64,000 nt of DNA, from the NCBI RefSeq assembly GCF_017654315.1, contig NZ_CP072203.1, positions 5,580,001 through 5,644,000 of the forward strand, written 5' to 3'. Position numbers and translations under genes: made by a program. The stretch is from Gordonia polyisoprenivorans (lineage in GTDB: Bacteria; Actinomycetota; Actinomycetes; Mycobacteriales; Mycobacteriaceae). A model generated the notes under the pieces. It was not told the origin of the DNA and ran no database searches. It saw only the letters and a program-made list of their open reading frames with translations. This document shows, one piece after another, positions 25,099-28,915 of this stretch; position 1 is the first letter of the stretch; each line of letters begins with the position of its first letter.

Positions 25099-25114
25099 AT
25101 ACCCCCCTGGGTAT
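25099..25114. promoter_or_regulatory. CsoR/CstR-type operator 1
   Basis: ATACCC-CCCT-GGGTAT, an inverted repeat with a G/C tract flanked by A/T, the typical operator form of the CsoR repressor family. It lies 60-75 bases upstream of the MMPL start, with its start 34 bp (about three helical turns) from that of operator 2. Confidence 0.8.
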
Positions 25115-25132
25115 ATTCGTCGTCACCGACCA

Positions 25133-25148
25133 ATACCCCCTGGGGTAT
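25133..25148. promoter_or_regulatory. CsoR/CstR-type operator 2
   Basis: ATACCCC-CT-GGGGTAT, a 7+7 inverted repeat 25 bases upstream of the MMPL GTG start, so occupancy should block transcription. It is nearly identical to operator 3 in front of the repressor gene. Confidence 0.85.
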
Positions 25149-25173
25149 CTGACGATGCGAGGGAGAACTCTCC

Positions 25174-27342
25174 GTGGACCCGACCGACCACTCCACCACC
25201 GTTGCCGACGAACCAGCACCCGCGGCAGCAGACGACACCCGACCCGGCCCGATGGGACGGCTCGGGGTGTGGACCGCGACGCACCGCCGGTGGGTGTTCG
25301 GCATCTGGTTCCTGCTCGTCATCGGCCTCGGTACCGCGGCGCCGAGTGTGTTCGGTTCCCTGGCCGGCGCCGGATGGCAGGCCAACGGATCGGAGTCGGT
25401 GCAGGTCCGCGAGCTCGCACAACAGCACTTCGGCGGCAACTCGTCGGCTGCGGTGCAGGTGGTGATCCACTCCGACGACCACCAGGTCACCGACCCGGCA
25501 GTCGGGCACGTGATCGCCGAGATCACCGGGATCGCGCGCAGCGACCCGCGCTTCGGTCCGGTCATCGCCCCGACACCGGGAATGACCGTCAGCCGCGACG
25601 GCCACACCGCGATCGTCATCATCGGCGCCGCTGCCGACACCGACGCGATGGTCAAGGCGGTCGATGATCACAAGGCCGCGTTGACCGGCTTGTCCGGCAA
25701 CGGGATCCAGGTGTATCCGACGGGCGCCTCGGCACTGTGGAGCGATTTCAACAAGGCCAATCACGAGGCGATGATCACGGCCGAGATGTTCTCCTGGCCG
25801 ATCACGCTGGCGATCATGGTGATCGCCTTCGGCTCTCTCGTGGCCGCAGGGCTCCCCCTGCTGCTGACCATCGCCGGACTCGTCGCCTCGGCCGGTGGCC
25901 TGGTGCTGCTGAACACCGTCACCCCGATCTCGGTGTGGGCCATGAACTTCGCGATGATGTTCGCCCTCGCGCTCGGTATCGACTACGCCCTGTTCATGGT
26001 GTCGCGCTTCCGTGCGGCGATCGCGCTACGCGAGACACCCGAACACGCGGTCGCCGAGACCATGGAGACCGCGGGCAAGGCAGTGCTCCTCTCGGGTCTG
26101 ACGGTGCTGGTGAGTTTGTCCGCGGTGCTGATGGTTCCGGCGCCCGCGGTGCGCACGATGGCCGTCGGGATCATGCTCGCCGTCGTCTTCGTCCTCGCGG
26201 CCACCATGACCCTGCTGCCGTCGGTGTTGTCGGCCCTGGGCACCAAGGTCAATGCCGGCTCGCTGCCGTGGGCGAAGAAGCAGGAGCACCGGTCGCACCG
26301 TTTCGGGCGCTGGGGAGAGCTGCTGCATCGTCACCCGTGGCCGTTCGCCGTCGTCTCGCTCGCCATCCTGATCCTGTTGGCGCTGCCGGTGCTGGGATTG
26401 AAGGTCGCGATGCCGTCGATCACCGTCGTTCCCGACGACGCGCCGGTCCGCCAGGGCTATCAGATCGTCGCCGACAACATGGGTCCCGGCGCCCCCGGTG
26501 CACTGCAGATCATCGTTGCCACCCCGGACGCTCCGGCAACGGCCACCGCAGCCGCACAGACGCCCGGTATCGCCATGGTCACGCCGGCCCAGGCCGCACC
26601 GGACAACTCGGGATATTCGATGCTGCAAGCGATTCCGTCGGTCGATCCGTCCGCGCCGGAAATGGCCGGCATACTCACCGATCTGCGTGACCGGGTTCCT
26701 GCGGGCGCTCTCGTCGGTGGCGCCGCGGCGGAGAACCTCGATCTACAGGACGCGCTGAACACGTGGTTCCCGGTGATCGTCGCGGTCATCCTGTCACTGG
26801 GCTTCCTGCTTCTGCTGGTCGCATTGCGAGCCCCGGTGATCGCGTTGCTGGGAACCCTGGTCAGCTTGCTGTCGACGGGCGCGGCCTTCGGTGTCGCCAC
26901 ACTGATTTTCCAGGACGGGCACGGTTCGGGTCTGCTCGGTTTTACCCCGCAGGGCTTCCTCGACGGCTGGGGTCCGGTGTTCTTCTTTGCGATGATCTTC
27001 GCAATCGCCATGGACTACACCGTCTTCCTGCTGGCGACCGCCAAGGAACATTACGAGCGCACGGGTGATCCGCGGACCGCGCAGGTCGACGGACTGGCCT
27101 ACTCCGGTCGCATCATCTTCGCGGCCGCCGCGGTGATGGTTGCGGTGTTCTTCACCTTCGCACTGGCCCAACCACTTCCGCCCAAGGAGATGGGCATCAT
27201 CCTCGGTGTCGCGGTCCTGCTCGATGCCACACTGATCCGCCTCGTGCTGCTTCCGGTACTCCTGCGGATCACCGGCCACGGGGCCTGGTGGACGCCCCGA
27301 TGGCTCGACCGGCTGCTGCCGGCCATCTCGTTCGGCCACTGA
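25174..27342 (+). CDS. MMPL/RND-family membrane transporter
   Basis: 722-residue transporter with two repeats of about five to six helices each. Helix 1 lies near residues 40-58 ([20 protein letters not shown]), followed by an external domain (about 60-190). The TM cluster with [15 protein letters not shown] (about 268-282, proton-relay Asp/Tyr motif) is followed by a second external domain (about 395-530) and a cluster with [22 protein letters not shown] (second GxxxDY-like motif). These mark MmpL/YdfJ-type proton-driven exporters. The GTG start follows GAGGGAGA. Two repressor operators sit in its promoter, so it is the first gene of an inducible operon. The cargo is unknown. Confidence 0.93.
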
Positions 27343-27356
27343 CGCCTCCTCCAGGT

Positions 27357-27372
27357 ATACCCCGAGGGGTAT
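27357..27372. promoter_or_regulatory. CsoR/CstR-type operator 3
   Basis: ATACCCC-GA-GGGGTAT, a 7+7 inverted repeat in the 67-bp gap between the MMPL gene and the repressor gene, 38 bases before the repressor start. It implies an internal autoregulated promoter. Confidence 0.85.
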
Positions 27373-27409
27373 CATGGGTGTCGGCACATCCACAGCGAAG
27401 GGAACCCAC

Positions 27410-27676
27410 ATGGTCGGCGACGAAGAAGCAATCGCGGTCGTACTCAACCGACTCCGCAGGGCGCACGGCCAACTCGCCGGTGTCATCGCGATGATCGAGC
27501 AGGGTCGCGACTGCAAGGACGTGGTCACGCAGCTGGCCGCGGTGTCCAAGGCACTCGACCGGGCGGGTTTCAAGATCGTCGCCACCGGTCTGCGCGAGTG
27601 CATCGCCGGCGACGAACCCACCGGCGAACCCATGACCAACGATCAACTGGAAAAACTGTTCCTCGCACTCGCCTGA
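27410..27676 (+). CDS. CsoR/CstR-family repressor with two-Cys (CstR-like) sensor site
   Basis: 88-residue all-helical repressor. Family core: [42 protein letters not shown]. Copper sensors use Cys36, His61 and Cys65 (Mycobacterium tuberculosis CsoR numbering). Here the two cysteines are kept (C35 and C64, 29 residues apart) but the His position is Gly60, so the copper site is incomplete. The pattern is that of CstR-type persulfide sensors, which keep the two Cys without the His. ATG 27410 is chosen because GAAGGGAA precedes it. Three matching operators surround the first two genes of the operon. Confidence 0.88.
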
Positions 27677-27723
27677 CCACGAGTCGGGCCACACGAGCGC
27701 GAGGACGAGAGAAAGGAATCCCG

Positions 27724-28137
27724 ATGGATCTGGCCATCGCCACCACACTGTCCGGCACGAGCTTCGACGAGGCGGTGACGCGTACCCGAGAAGCACTGTC
27801 GCAACAAGGATTCGGCGTGCTCACCGAGATCGACGTGACCGCGACGCTGAAGGCCAAACTCGGCGAGGACATGGAACGTTACCTGATTCTCGGTGCCTGC
27901 AATCCGCCGCTCGCGCATGCCGCACTCGGCGTCGACCGGCAGATCGGTCTGTTGCTGCCGTGCAATGTGGTGGTCCGTGAGGACACCTCGCGCGCGGAGT
28001 CGATCATCGTCGAGGCGATGAACCCCGACCTCATGGTCGCCGTCGCGGACGCACCCGGGCTCCCCGACGTCGCCGCGGCCGCCACCACGAAACTGCGCGC
28101 GGCCATCGATGCACTGAGCAGCGCGGTGGCCTCGTGA
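27724..28137 (+). CDS. DUF302 domain protein
   Basis: 137-residue protein matching the DUF302 pattern: TTLSGTSFDEAVTRTREALSQQGFGVLTEIDV, LILGACNPPLAHAALGVDRQIGLLLPCNVVVRED, then an extra C-terminal helix. It is soluble and probably dimeric; the function of the family is not established. DUF302 genes often sit beside sulfur- or metal-responsive genes, which fits the repressor here (context inference). GAAAGGAA precedes the ATG. Its stop overlaps the next start (GTGA). Confidence 0.88.
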   Translation: MDLAIATTLSGTSFDEAVTRTREALSQQGFGVLTEIDVTATLKAKLGEDMERYLILGACNPPLAHAALGVDRQIGLLLPCNVVVREDTSRAESIIVEAMNPDLMVAVADAPGLPDVAAAATTKLRAAIDALSSAVAS

Positions 28138-28760
28138 ACGCCTCGCCCACAACCGTTCCCGATGTCGGCGACGTCGAGATCTACGTCGATCCGGCTTGCC
28201 CGTTCGCCTGGGCCGCATCCCGCTGGTTGGCCGGCGTGGCCGAGCGCCGGGGCGTAGGAGCCACCTGGCGGCCGATGAGCCTGGCCGTACTCAACGAGGA
28301 CCGCGAGGTCGGCGGCGCCCACGCCGAGCGGATGATCGTCTCACGCCGGACGGGCCGGCTTCTGGCCGCCGCCGGAGACGAGGCGATGCGCGAGTTGTAC
28401 TTCGCACTCGGTCGTCGACTGCACAGCGACGGGAGTCCATTGTCGGAGCGCCTGGTTCTCGAGGCGCTCGCCGAGTGCGCACTGCCCACCGATCTGGTTG
28501 CCGCCATGGATGATCCCGTCTGGGACGATGCGGTCCGCCGCGCCCATCGTGCCAGCCAGGAAGCGCTCGGAGGCACCGGCGGCAGTCCTATCACCGTCTT
28601 CGGTGGACGAGCCTACTTCGGTCCCGTACTCACCGGGATTCCCGGCCGTGACGAGGCCGACCGGCTGTTCGACGCACTGACCACCCTCGCCGGGACGACG
28701 GCGTTCGCACAGGTCGAGCGACCGCGGTCCGGACCACCGAACCTGGCGGAGGTCGCCTGA
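28134..28760 (+). CDS. Rv2466c-like DsbA-fold oxidoreductase with CPFA site
   Basis: 208-residue thioredoxin-fold protein with the helical insert of the DsbA/FrnE group, close in length and layout to the mycothiol-dependent reductase Rv2466c of M. tuberculosis. The YVDPACPFAW segment is the active site: the first Cys is kept, but the second Cys of the usual CPWC is Ala. It therefore can only work by a one-Cys (mycothiol or persulfide) mechanism, or is not a disulfide reductase. cis-Pro is seen in GSPITVFG. It is coupled to DUF302 upstream and a Cys-rich small protein downstream. Confidence 0.82.
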   Translation: MNASPTTVPDVGDVEIYVDPACPFAWAASRWLAGVAERRGVGATWRPMSLAVLNEDREVGGAHAERMIVSRRTGRLLAAAGDEAMRELYFALGRRLHSDGSPLSERLVLEALAECALPTDLVAAMDDPVWDDAVRRAHRASQEALGGTGGSPITVFGGRAYFGPVLTGIPGRDEADRLFDALTTLAGTTAFAQVERPRSGPPNLAEVA

Positions 28761-28915
28761 TGTGTCACGCAGTCCGGTGCCGCGATTGCGGCAAGACCAC
28801 ATGGTCGGGATGCGGCAGGCATGTCGCGCAGGTGAAGGCCTCGGTGCCCGCGGCGCAATGGTGCCCCGGCCATCCCGACGCCCCGCGTCGCGGATTGTTC
28901 GGTCGGCGGCGCTGA
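28760..28915 (+). CDS. Small Cys-rich zinc-finger-like protein (51 aa)
   Basis: Short gene whose ATG shares a base with the TGA of the oxidoreductase (TGATG). The product starts MCHAVRCRDCGKTTW and continues SGCGRHVAQVKASVPAAQW, then CPGHPDAPRRGLFGRRR. Cys at 2, 7, 10, 18 and about 35, with three His, look like a zinc-binding knuckle. Very similar short proteins (MCxAVxCRxCGKTTWxGCG) are common in actinobacteria and have no known function. Placement at the end of the thiol operon suggests a linked role, but it could simply be a widespread housekeeping peptide. Confidence 0.85.
   Translation: MCHAVRCRDCGKTTWSGCGRHVAQVKASVPAAQWCPGHPDAPRRGLFGRRR

Follow-up and report, generated by a model that had tools for sequence, protein, structure and literature searches.

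Gene organization and control elements

We examined a window of 64,000 nucleotides from Gordonia polyisoprenivorans (RefSeq assembly GCF_017654315.1, contig NZ_CP072203.1, forward-strand positions 5,580,001 to 5,644,000), in which five open reading frames, all on the + strand within positions 25099-28915, encode an MMPL-family transporter, a CsoR-family repressor, a DUF302 protein, an Rv2466c-like protein, and a Cys-rich protein. A first-pass annotation of this DNA had read them as one operon of co-directional genes with short gaps or overlaps that responds to persulfides or electrophiles, with an MMPL exporter as its output. The arrangement is borne out by the reading frame coordinates and Pfam matches: 67 bp separate the MMPL and repressor genes, 47 bp separate the repressor and DUF302 genes, and the last two junctions overlap. 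A Pfam search of the five genes gave no P-type ATPase, metallochaperone, or rhodanese, as had also been stated. The features are as follows.

25099..25114, + strand: operator 1, 16 bp, ATACCCCCCTGGGTAT, match to the pattern ATACCCN4GGGTAT
25133..25148, + strand: operator 2, 16 bp, ATACCCCCTGGGGTAT, match to the same pattern, starting 34 bp past the start of operator 1
25174..27342, + strand: MMPL-family (RND) transporter, 722 aa, GTG start, PF03176 (1e-70)
27357..27372, + strand: operator 3, 16 bp, ATACCCCGAGGGGTAT, pattern match preceding the repressor gene
27410..27676, + strand: predicted CstR-type repressor of the CsoR family, 88 aa, from PF02583 (7e-23), residue conservation, and alignment with the copper-type CsoR of the host
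27724..28137, + strand: DUF302 protein, 137 aa, PF03625 (1.4e-23)
28134..28760, + strand: Rv2466c-like thioredoxin-fold protein, 208 aa, with a single-Cys CPFA site, PF22234 (2.3e-42)
28760..28915, + strand: Cys-rich protein, 51 aa (C2, C7, C10, C18, H21, C35), no Pfam family

No terminator was found 3' of the Cys-rich gene. Two flanking genes were considered as operon members and rejected. The downstream esterase gene (28947-29873) also trails CstR-DUF302 pairs at Gordonia loci with no detected MMPL, CPFA, or Cys-rich gene (L009-L012, L014, L017, and L019), and therefore looks like plain synteny; the other was an upstream DUF6882 gene.

Class of the repressor

Among named organisms, Gordonia has the repressor's closest relatives. 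When its start is taken at 27410, the translation contains C35, G60, and C64, the residues on which its earlier description as a persulfide sensor had turned, and both cysteines are kept in all 104 distinct relatives (at least 60% identity). These relatives have Gly (99), Asn (3), or Ser (2) at the position of the copper-binding His. The protein thus has the PF02583 fold and two cysteines without the copper His, as is characteristic of CstR, and with Gly60 it lacks the C-H-C copper ligand set. The host genome encodes one other PF02583 protein, which is of the C-H-C type with His at the copper position (EEHMNHC), and its gene adjoins a CopA-type P-type ATPase with an HMA domain. Because C35 and C64 are invariant, the copper His is missing, and a separate C-H-C CsoR lies beside an ATPase in the same genome, comparison gives good support to a CstR-type rather than a copper-type repressor. 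Its nearest solved chain, 7mq1, has Asn rather than His at the copper position and was deposited as a copper repressor; we take it to be pneumococcal CstR.

Ten Gordonia genomes together encode 24 PF02583 proteins, of which 12 have His at the copper position and the other 12 have Gly or Ser; eight of these genomes have two such genes. The remaining two, G300 and G302, have four CsoR-family genes each, two His-type and two Gly-type.

Operator spacing

The 16-bp pattern ATACCCN4GGGTAT was searched with its reversed form as a control and with dinucleotide shuffles of the window. The window contains 3 matches versus 0 in 100 shuffles, and the only exact sites in the 6.03-Mb host genome are these three, all in the MMPL operon, while the control pattern has none. 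With up to 3 mismatches the genome has 77 sites versus 33 for the control, and four sites have exactly 2 mismatches. The three nearly identical ATACCCC/GGGGTAT operators of the first-pass annotation therefore stand in number and position, although operator 1 is one base off that form.

A 16-bp site is present in 45 of 59 Gordonia genomes, and a 17-bp site in 51. To compare their surroundings, we sampled 29 loci of each kind, one site per genome among the genomes for which a locus was available, and sought labeled genes within 1.5 kb (E<=1e-6), the label set consisting of the neighbor clusters of CstR loci plus three copper genes. Genes of the CstR-regulon type were present at 24 of the 29 loci with 16-bp sites and copper genes at none, whereas copper genes were present at 26 of the 29 loci with 17-bp sites and CstR-regulon-type genes at none (Fisher 8e-15 for 24/0 versus 0/26, a statistic that ignores kinship among genomes); three 17-bp loci and five 16-bp loci were unlabeled. 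The 16-bp TACC-type palindrome is thus distinct from the copper operator, as expected of CstR, and at the sampled loci does not have the copper-gene targets of CsoR/RicR. This code agrees with published sites: the sulfane-sulfur sensor ScCsoR of Streptomyces coelicolor recognizes a 16-bp site, ATACCn6GGTAT (PMC7533328), and the copper CsoR of S. lividans recognizes ATATACCCCTNAGGGGTATAT, with an ATACCC..GGGTAT core of 17 bp (PMC3902906). In these comparisons one base pair of operator spacing separates the persulfide-type from the copper-type regulons of paralogous repressors in Gordonia, and the rule would allow either type to be read from genome sequence in this genus.

The host genome itself has two 17-bp copper-type sites. 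One (L003, host 2042658-2042674) lies directly upstream of a gene for a CopB-like P-type ATPase, recognized by eye and by a Pfam match, with an MscL-like gene (by eye) adjoining. The other (L004, host 4221441-4221457) is near a recombinase-like gene (by eye), with no copper gene recognized nearby.

Operator-linked genes in two relatives

Two Gordonia genomes, G136 and G321, were picked for their many 16-bp sites. Each encodes two PF02583 proteins, a His-type and a CstR-type one, the latter having Ser at the copper position in G136. Eight site loci were inspected in G136. Tandem sites precede an MMPL-CstR-DUF302 cluster (L227) and a cluster of Cys-rich, persulfide dioxygenase (PDO)/rhodanese, and TauE genes (L226). 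Sites also precede a CoA-persulfide-reductase-like gene with a Cys-rich gene behind it (L230 and L313), a sulfide-quinone reductase (SQR)-like gene (L231), a YgaP-TM gene (L229), and an OsmC gene (L228), and a further site is near a peroxiredoxin gene (L225). The CoA-persulfide-reductase-like gene has 8a56 as its best solved relative (8e-134), and all nine solved matches of the SQR-like gene are named sulfide-quinone reductase. CstR of Enterococcus faecalis likewise controls a CoA-persulfide reductase (CoAPR; PMC9405070). Since the operator is shared and G136 has a single CstR-type protein, one CstR is predicted by sequence to control the MMPL operon together with canonical persulfide genes in this genome. 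A gene for a hemerythrin-domain protein (L229:695-1192) was also observed directly behind the YgaP-TM gene with its 16-bp operator.

G321 is a second, weaker apparent case of the shared operator. Among nine inspected loci, sites are present at an MMPL-CstR-DUF302-CPFA-Cys-rich cluster (L236), a TauE gene (L234), a lone Cys-rich gene (L235), a YgaP-TM gene (L239), and a peroxiredoxin gene (L240). No sulfurtransferase, persulfide, or sulfite gene is under such control in the window operon itself; control of these genes is predicted by operator position in G136, for TauE in G321, and by neighborhood in mycobacteria. At another G321 locus, a DUF2202 gene (L233:1336-2118) lies behind a 16-bp operator beside a cation-transporting ATPase of a kind other than copper-type HMA.

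Conservation of the cluster

The first-pass annotation had named the absence of conserved clustering in other genomes as a result that would count against it, and clustering of these families was found in several actinobacterial genera. Repressor loci were taken as the best 80 of at least 486 confirmed relatives, a non-random set of stretches of up to 12 kb, with MMPL called at 50% identity or more. MMPL-CstR-DUF302 clusters recur in Gordonia, Nocardia, Rhodococcus, Prescottella, and Antrihabitans, and MMPL is present at 35 of the 80 loci (Nocardia 19/26, Rhodococcus 8/12, Gordonia 4/11, Prescottella 3/3, Antrihabitans 1/1, mycobacteria 0/26, and one other 0/1). Among the 33 MMPL matches that include the start, 30 are less than 800 bp from CstR, and 22 have an upstream 16-bp site, with two sites in 18 (25-36 bp between site starts). 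Of the 80 related repressors, 49 also have a 16-bp site no more than 160 bp upstream. Canonical sulfur genes occur in the stretches of 12 of the 35 MMPL-bearing loci, and the mycobacterial orthologue loci are near PDO-rhodanese and near TauE genes in 20 of 26 cases each.

Across 298 genomes of the order, MMPL (E<=1e-150) is present in 30; CstR (E<=1e-20) is found in 29 of these 30 versus 111 of the 268 genomes without MMPL (Fisher 1e-9, again ignoring kinship), and CstR is matched within 1.5 kb at 17 of the best 30 MMPL loci. All five genes occur in the same order at L015, L021, L038, L102, and L236; L102 and L021 may represent the same species. CstR-DUF302 pairs without MMPL occur at 7 of the 11 Gordonia repressor loci.

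Transporter and thiol proteins

The match of PF03176 to the MMPL protein in two stretches identifies it as an MMPL/RND-domain protein. Its nearest solved relatives are MmpL3, then MmpL5/MmpL4, named as exporters of trehalose monomycolate, siderophores, and drugs, and the similarity to MmpL3 is distant (210 bits against an NCBIfam equivalog cut-off of 1400). The translation contains GIDYALF and AMDYTVF, read by eye and unaligned to a solved structure; Asp-Tyr pairs are the proton-relay motif of MMPL/RND transporters. The protein contains no Cys, a feature shared by 57 of 61 distinct orthologues. This was considered as a sign of adaptation to persulfides and dropped, since two other MMPL proteins of the host also have none and the feature is therefore no evidence. 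The host genome also contains a match to an MMPL paralogue with one in-frame TGA (L270, host 396461-397456), possibly a disrupted gene.

The DUF302 protein matches PF03625 with 83 bits (cut-off 23), has 1j3m and 1q9u as solved relatives, and shares C59 and C80 with all 73 distinct relatives (at least 50% identity). Of its 14 copies in 11 Gordonia genomes, 13 are beside CstR or MMPL, and the lone exception adjoins a CPFA-like gene on a 3.6-kb contig. For the Rv2466c-like protein, which had been described as a thiol-type oxidoreductase with a CPFA motif, both the motif and the PF22234 match (145.6 bits, cut-off 27) were confirmed, with 4zil, 5xur, 4nxi, and 4wkw as solved relatives. C22 is kept in 15 of 15 distinct relatives (at least 38% identity), and the fourth motif position is A, T, or S and never C in all 15, so this is not a two-Cys CPxC site. 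No Pfam family was found for the 51-aa protein at E<=0.1; its five cysteines are kept in 50 of 50 relatives, and 12 of its 13 copies in 11 Gordonia genomes follow a 16-bp operator, with one copy in G285 as the exception. The Cys patterns of these three proteins would suit sulfane-sulfur carriage or mixed disulfides.

A predicted persulfide regulon and its alternatives

The comparisons show the class of the repressor, the spacing code of its operators, which genes an operator places in the regulon, and the conserved clustering, and together they indicate that the operon is probably a CstR-type persulfide (sulfane-sulfur) regulon with an MMPL/RND exporter and thiol proteins as its output. The persulfide response proposed in the first-pass annotation is supported by the comparative tests: operator spacing parts it from copper, sulfur genes recur in the neighborhoods of orthologous repressors, and the operator is shared with persulfide genes in G136. 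This assignment adds three little-understood families (an MMPL/RND exporter, DUF302, and a five-Cys protein that has no name) to a predicted Gordonia persulfide regulon, and by clustering to that of Nocardia and Rhodococcus as well, and so offers each of them a role open to test.

In such a regulon the reduced repressor would occupy the two operators before the MMPL gene and the one before its own gene. A low-molecular-weight persulfide or polysulfide would link C35 and C64 of neighboring subunits through a di- or polysulfide, whereupon the repressor would leave the operators and the MMPL, DUF302, single-Cys Rv2466c-like, and Cys-rich proteins would be made. As far as derepression, this sequence of events is the one published for CstR and ScCsoR. 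DUF302 and the Cys-rich protein would then serve as carriers or buffers of sulfane sulfur, the CPFA protein would form mixed disulfides resolved by mycothiol, and the MMPL protein would use proton drive to remove a hydrophobic or thiol-bound product or to remodel the envelope. Export of a sulfur species itself by the MMPL protein is a guess that we hold only tentatively. Equally speculative is a broader possibility, that mycolate-making actinobacteria may have moved part of persulfide disposal from oxidation (SQR, dioxygenase, and sulfite export) to direct export through the CstR-controlled MMPL pump. Its cargo would be a sulfane-sulfur species, for example a mycothiol persulfide or a hydrophobic polysulfide, handed over by DUF302 and by the five-Cys protein with its invariant cysteines. 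If this were true, DUF302 and the five-Cys protein would be new families of sulfane-sulfur carriers.

Several observations weigh against a persulfide regulon. PDO-rhodanese was not found in the host genome at E<=1e-40, and only 3 of 59 Gordonia genomes have one, so the operon is without a proven sulfur-oxidation enzyme. No sulfur gene adjoins one of the eight G136 sites (L224) and none was recognized at four of the nine in G321 (L232, L233, L237, and L238), and among the five unlabeled 16-bp loci of the operator sample, L184 holds a YgaP-TM gene and four are unexplained. MMPL at 50% identity or more is missing from 45 of the 80 repressor loci, in some cases from nearby contig ends, and P-type ATPases (29-39% identity to CopA or CopB) are present in the stretches of eight. 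A distant MMPL family (L113-L117, 61-64% identical) is followed by a Cys-rich gene but lacks both a 16-bp site and a CstR match within 1.5 kb. The promoter scanner found no sigma-70-type promoter at either control region; a TATATT overlapping the end of operator 1, read by eye, is too weak to claim as a promoter box.

The gap left by PDO-rhodanese would fit a general thiol-electrophile or xenobiotic efflux system, in which the two-Cys repressor answers organosulfur compounds, quinones, and other electrophiles, persulfide is one of several inducers, and the MMPL protein is a drug-type RND pump. MexR, a two-Cys repressor of an RND pump that senses oxidants as well as sulfane sulfur, provides a precedent (PMC11211675), siderophore and drug exporters are among the solved MMPL relatives, and a response to peroxides or electrophiles would likewise be consistent with the OsmC and peroxiredoxin genes at sites in G136 and G321. 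We consider this unlikely, given that the operator-defined regulon of G136 and the mycobacterial neighborhoods are rich in sulfide and persulfide genes. It is similarly doubtful that the MMPL protein exports a lipid and remodels the mycolate envelope under reactive-sulfur damage, with no sulfur export. The closest solved relative, MmpL3, exports trehalose monomycolate, and a wax-ester-synthase/DGAT gene (PF03007) forms a neighbor cluster at four loci, but the similarity to MmpL3 is distant and the commoner neighbors are sulfur and thiol genes, though most of the 45 listed clusters are unannotated.

Regulation by copper is very improbable. A copper CsoR/RicR whose operon handles copper-related thiol damage would account for PF02583 membership, the CsoR-like palindrome, the P-type ATPases at eight repressor loci, and RicR as the best NCBIfam match (40.9 bits, below the cut-off of 175), but it is contradicted by the Gly at the copper His, the separate His-type CsoR with its HMA-domain ATPase, and the lack of copper genes at the sampled 16-bp loci. 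A formaldehyde sensor is less probable still: the FrmR match is weak (28.9 bits against a cut-off of 133), FrmR is not known to have the second Cys that all 104 relatives keep as C64, and no dehydrogenase family is among the five genes.

Comparison with described systems

The first-pass annotation could match this combination of genes to no described system. That is so for the whole, as neither a paper joining CstR, persulfide, and MMPL nor an experiment on this operon was found in the open-licence literature searched, and no matching system was found among the top-listed open-licence papers on RND/MmpL with persulfide, sulfane sulfur, or CsoR. It does not hold for the parts. The ScCsoR/SCO0620 circuit of S. 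coelicolor is a close analogue of the switch, with a CsoR-family repressor, Cys-based sensing, and 16-bp sites that occur as a pair in one target promoter; its targets are a PDO, a rhodanese, and a sulfite transporter, and the portion of the report available names no MMPL, DUF302, Rv2466c-like, or Cys-rich gene (PMC7533328). The SUL modules of Arthrobacter plasmids place a transporter gene, a DUF302 gene, and a small gene of hypothetical product with a CsoR-family regulator; the transporter is of the major facilitator superfamily rather than MMPL, and the modules include a sulfur dioxygenase, two rhodaneses, and TauE (PMC6305408).

In Pseudomonas aeruginosa, sulfane sulfur relieves repression of an RND pump, MexAB-OprM, by the two-Cys MexR, which belongs to the MarR family, unlike the CsoR-family repressor of this operon (PMC11211675). 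MexAB-OprM is a tripartite pump of an RND class other than MMPL. The copper CsoR of S. lividans shares the family and a related palindrome, but with its 17-bp core and copper-efflux targets it matches the other CsoR of the host (PMC3902906). The mycothiol-dependent reductases Rv2466c and NCgl2478 have the PF22234 fold and a two-Cys motif, in contrast to the single-Cys CPFA site described here (PMC8280269). CstR of Staphylococcus aureus and E. faecalis is a two-Cys CsoR-family repressor as well (C31 and C62 in E. faecalis), controlling rhodaneses and CoAPR where the Gordonia operon has an exporter and thiol proteins (PMC9405070). Five Gordonia genomes likewise carry a CoA-persulfide/disulfide-reductase-like gene that is preceded by a 16-bp operator and has a Cys-rich gene next in line (L307 and L310-L313).

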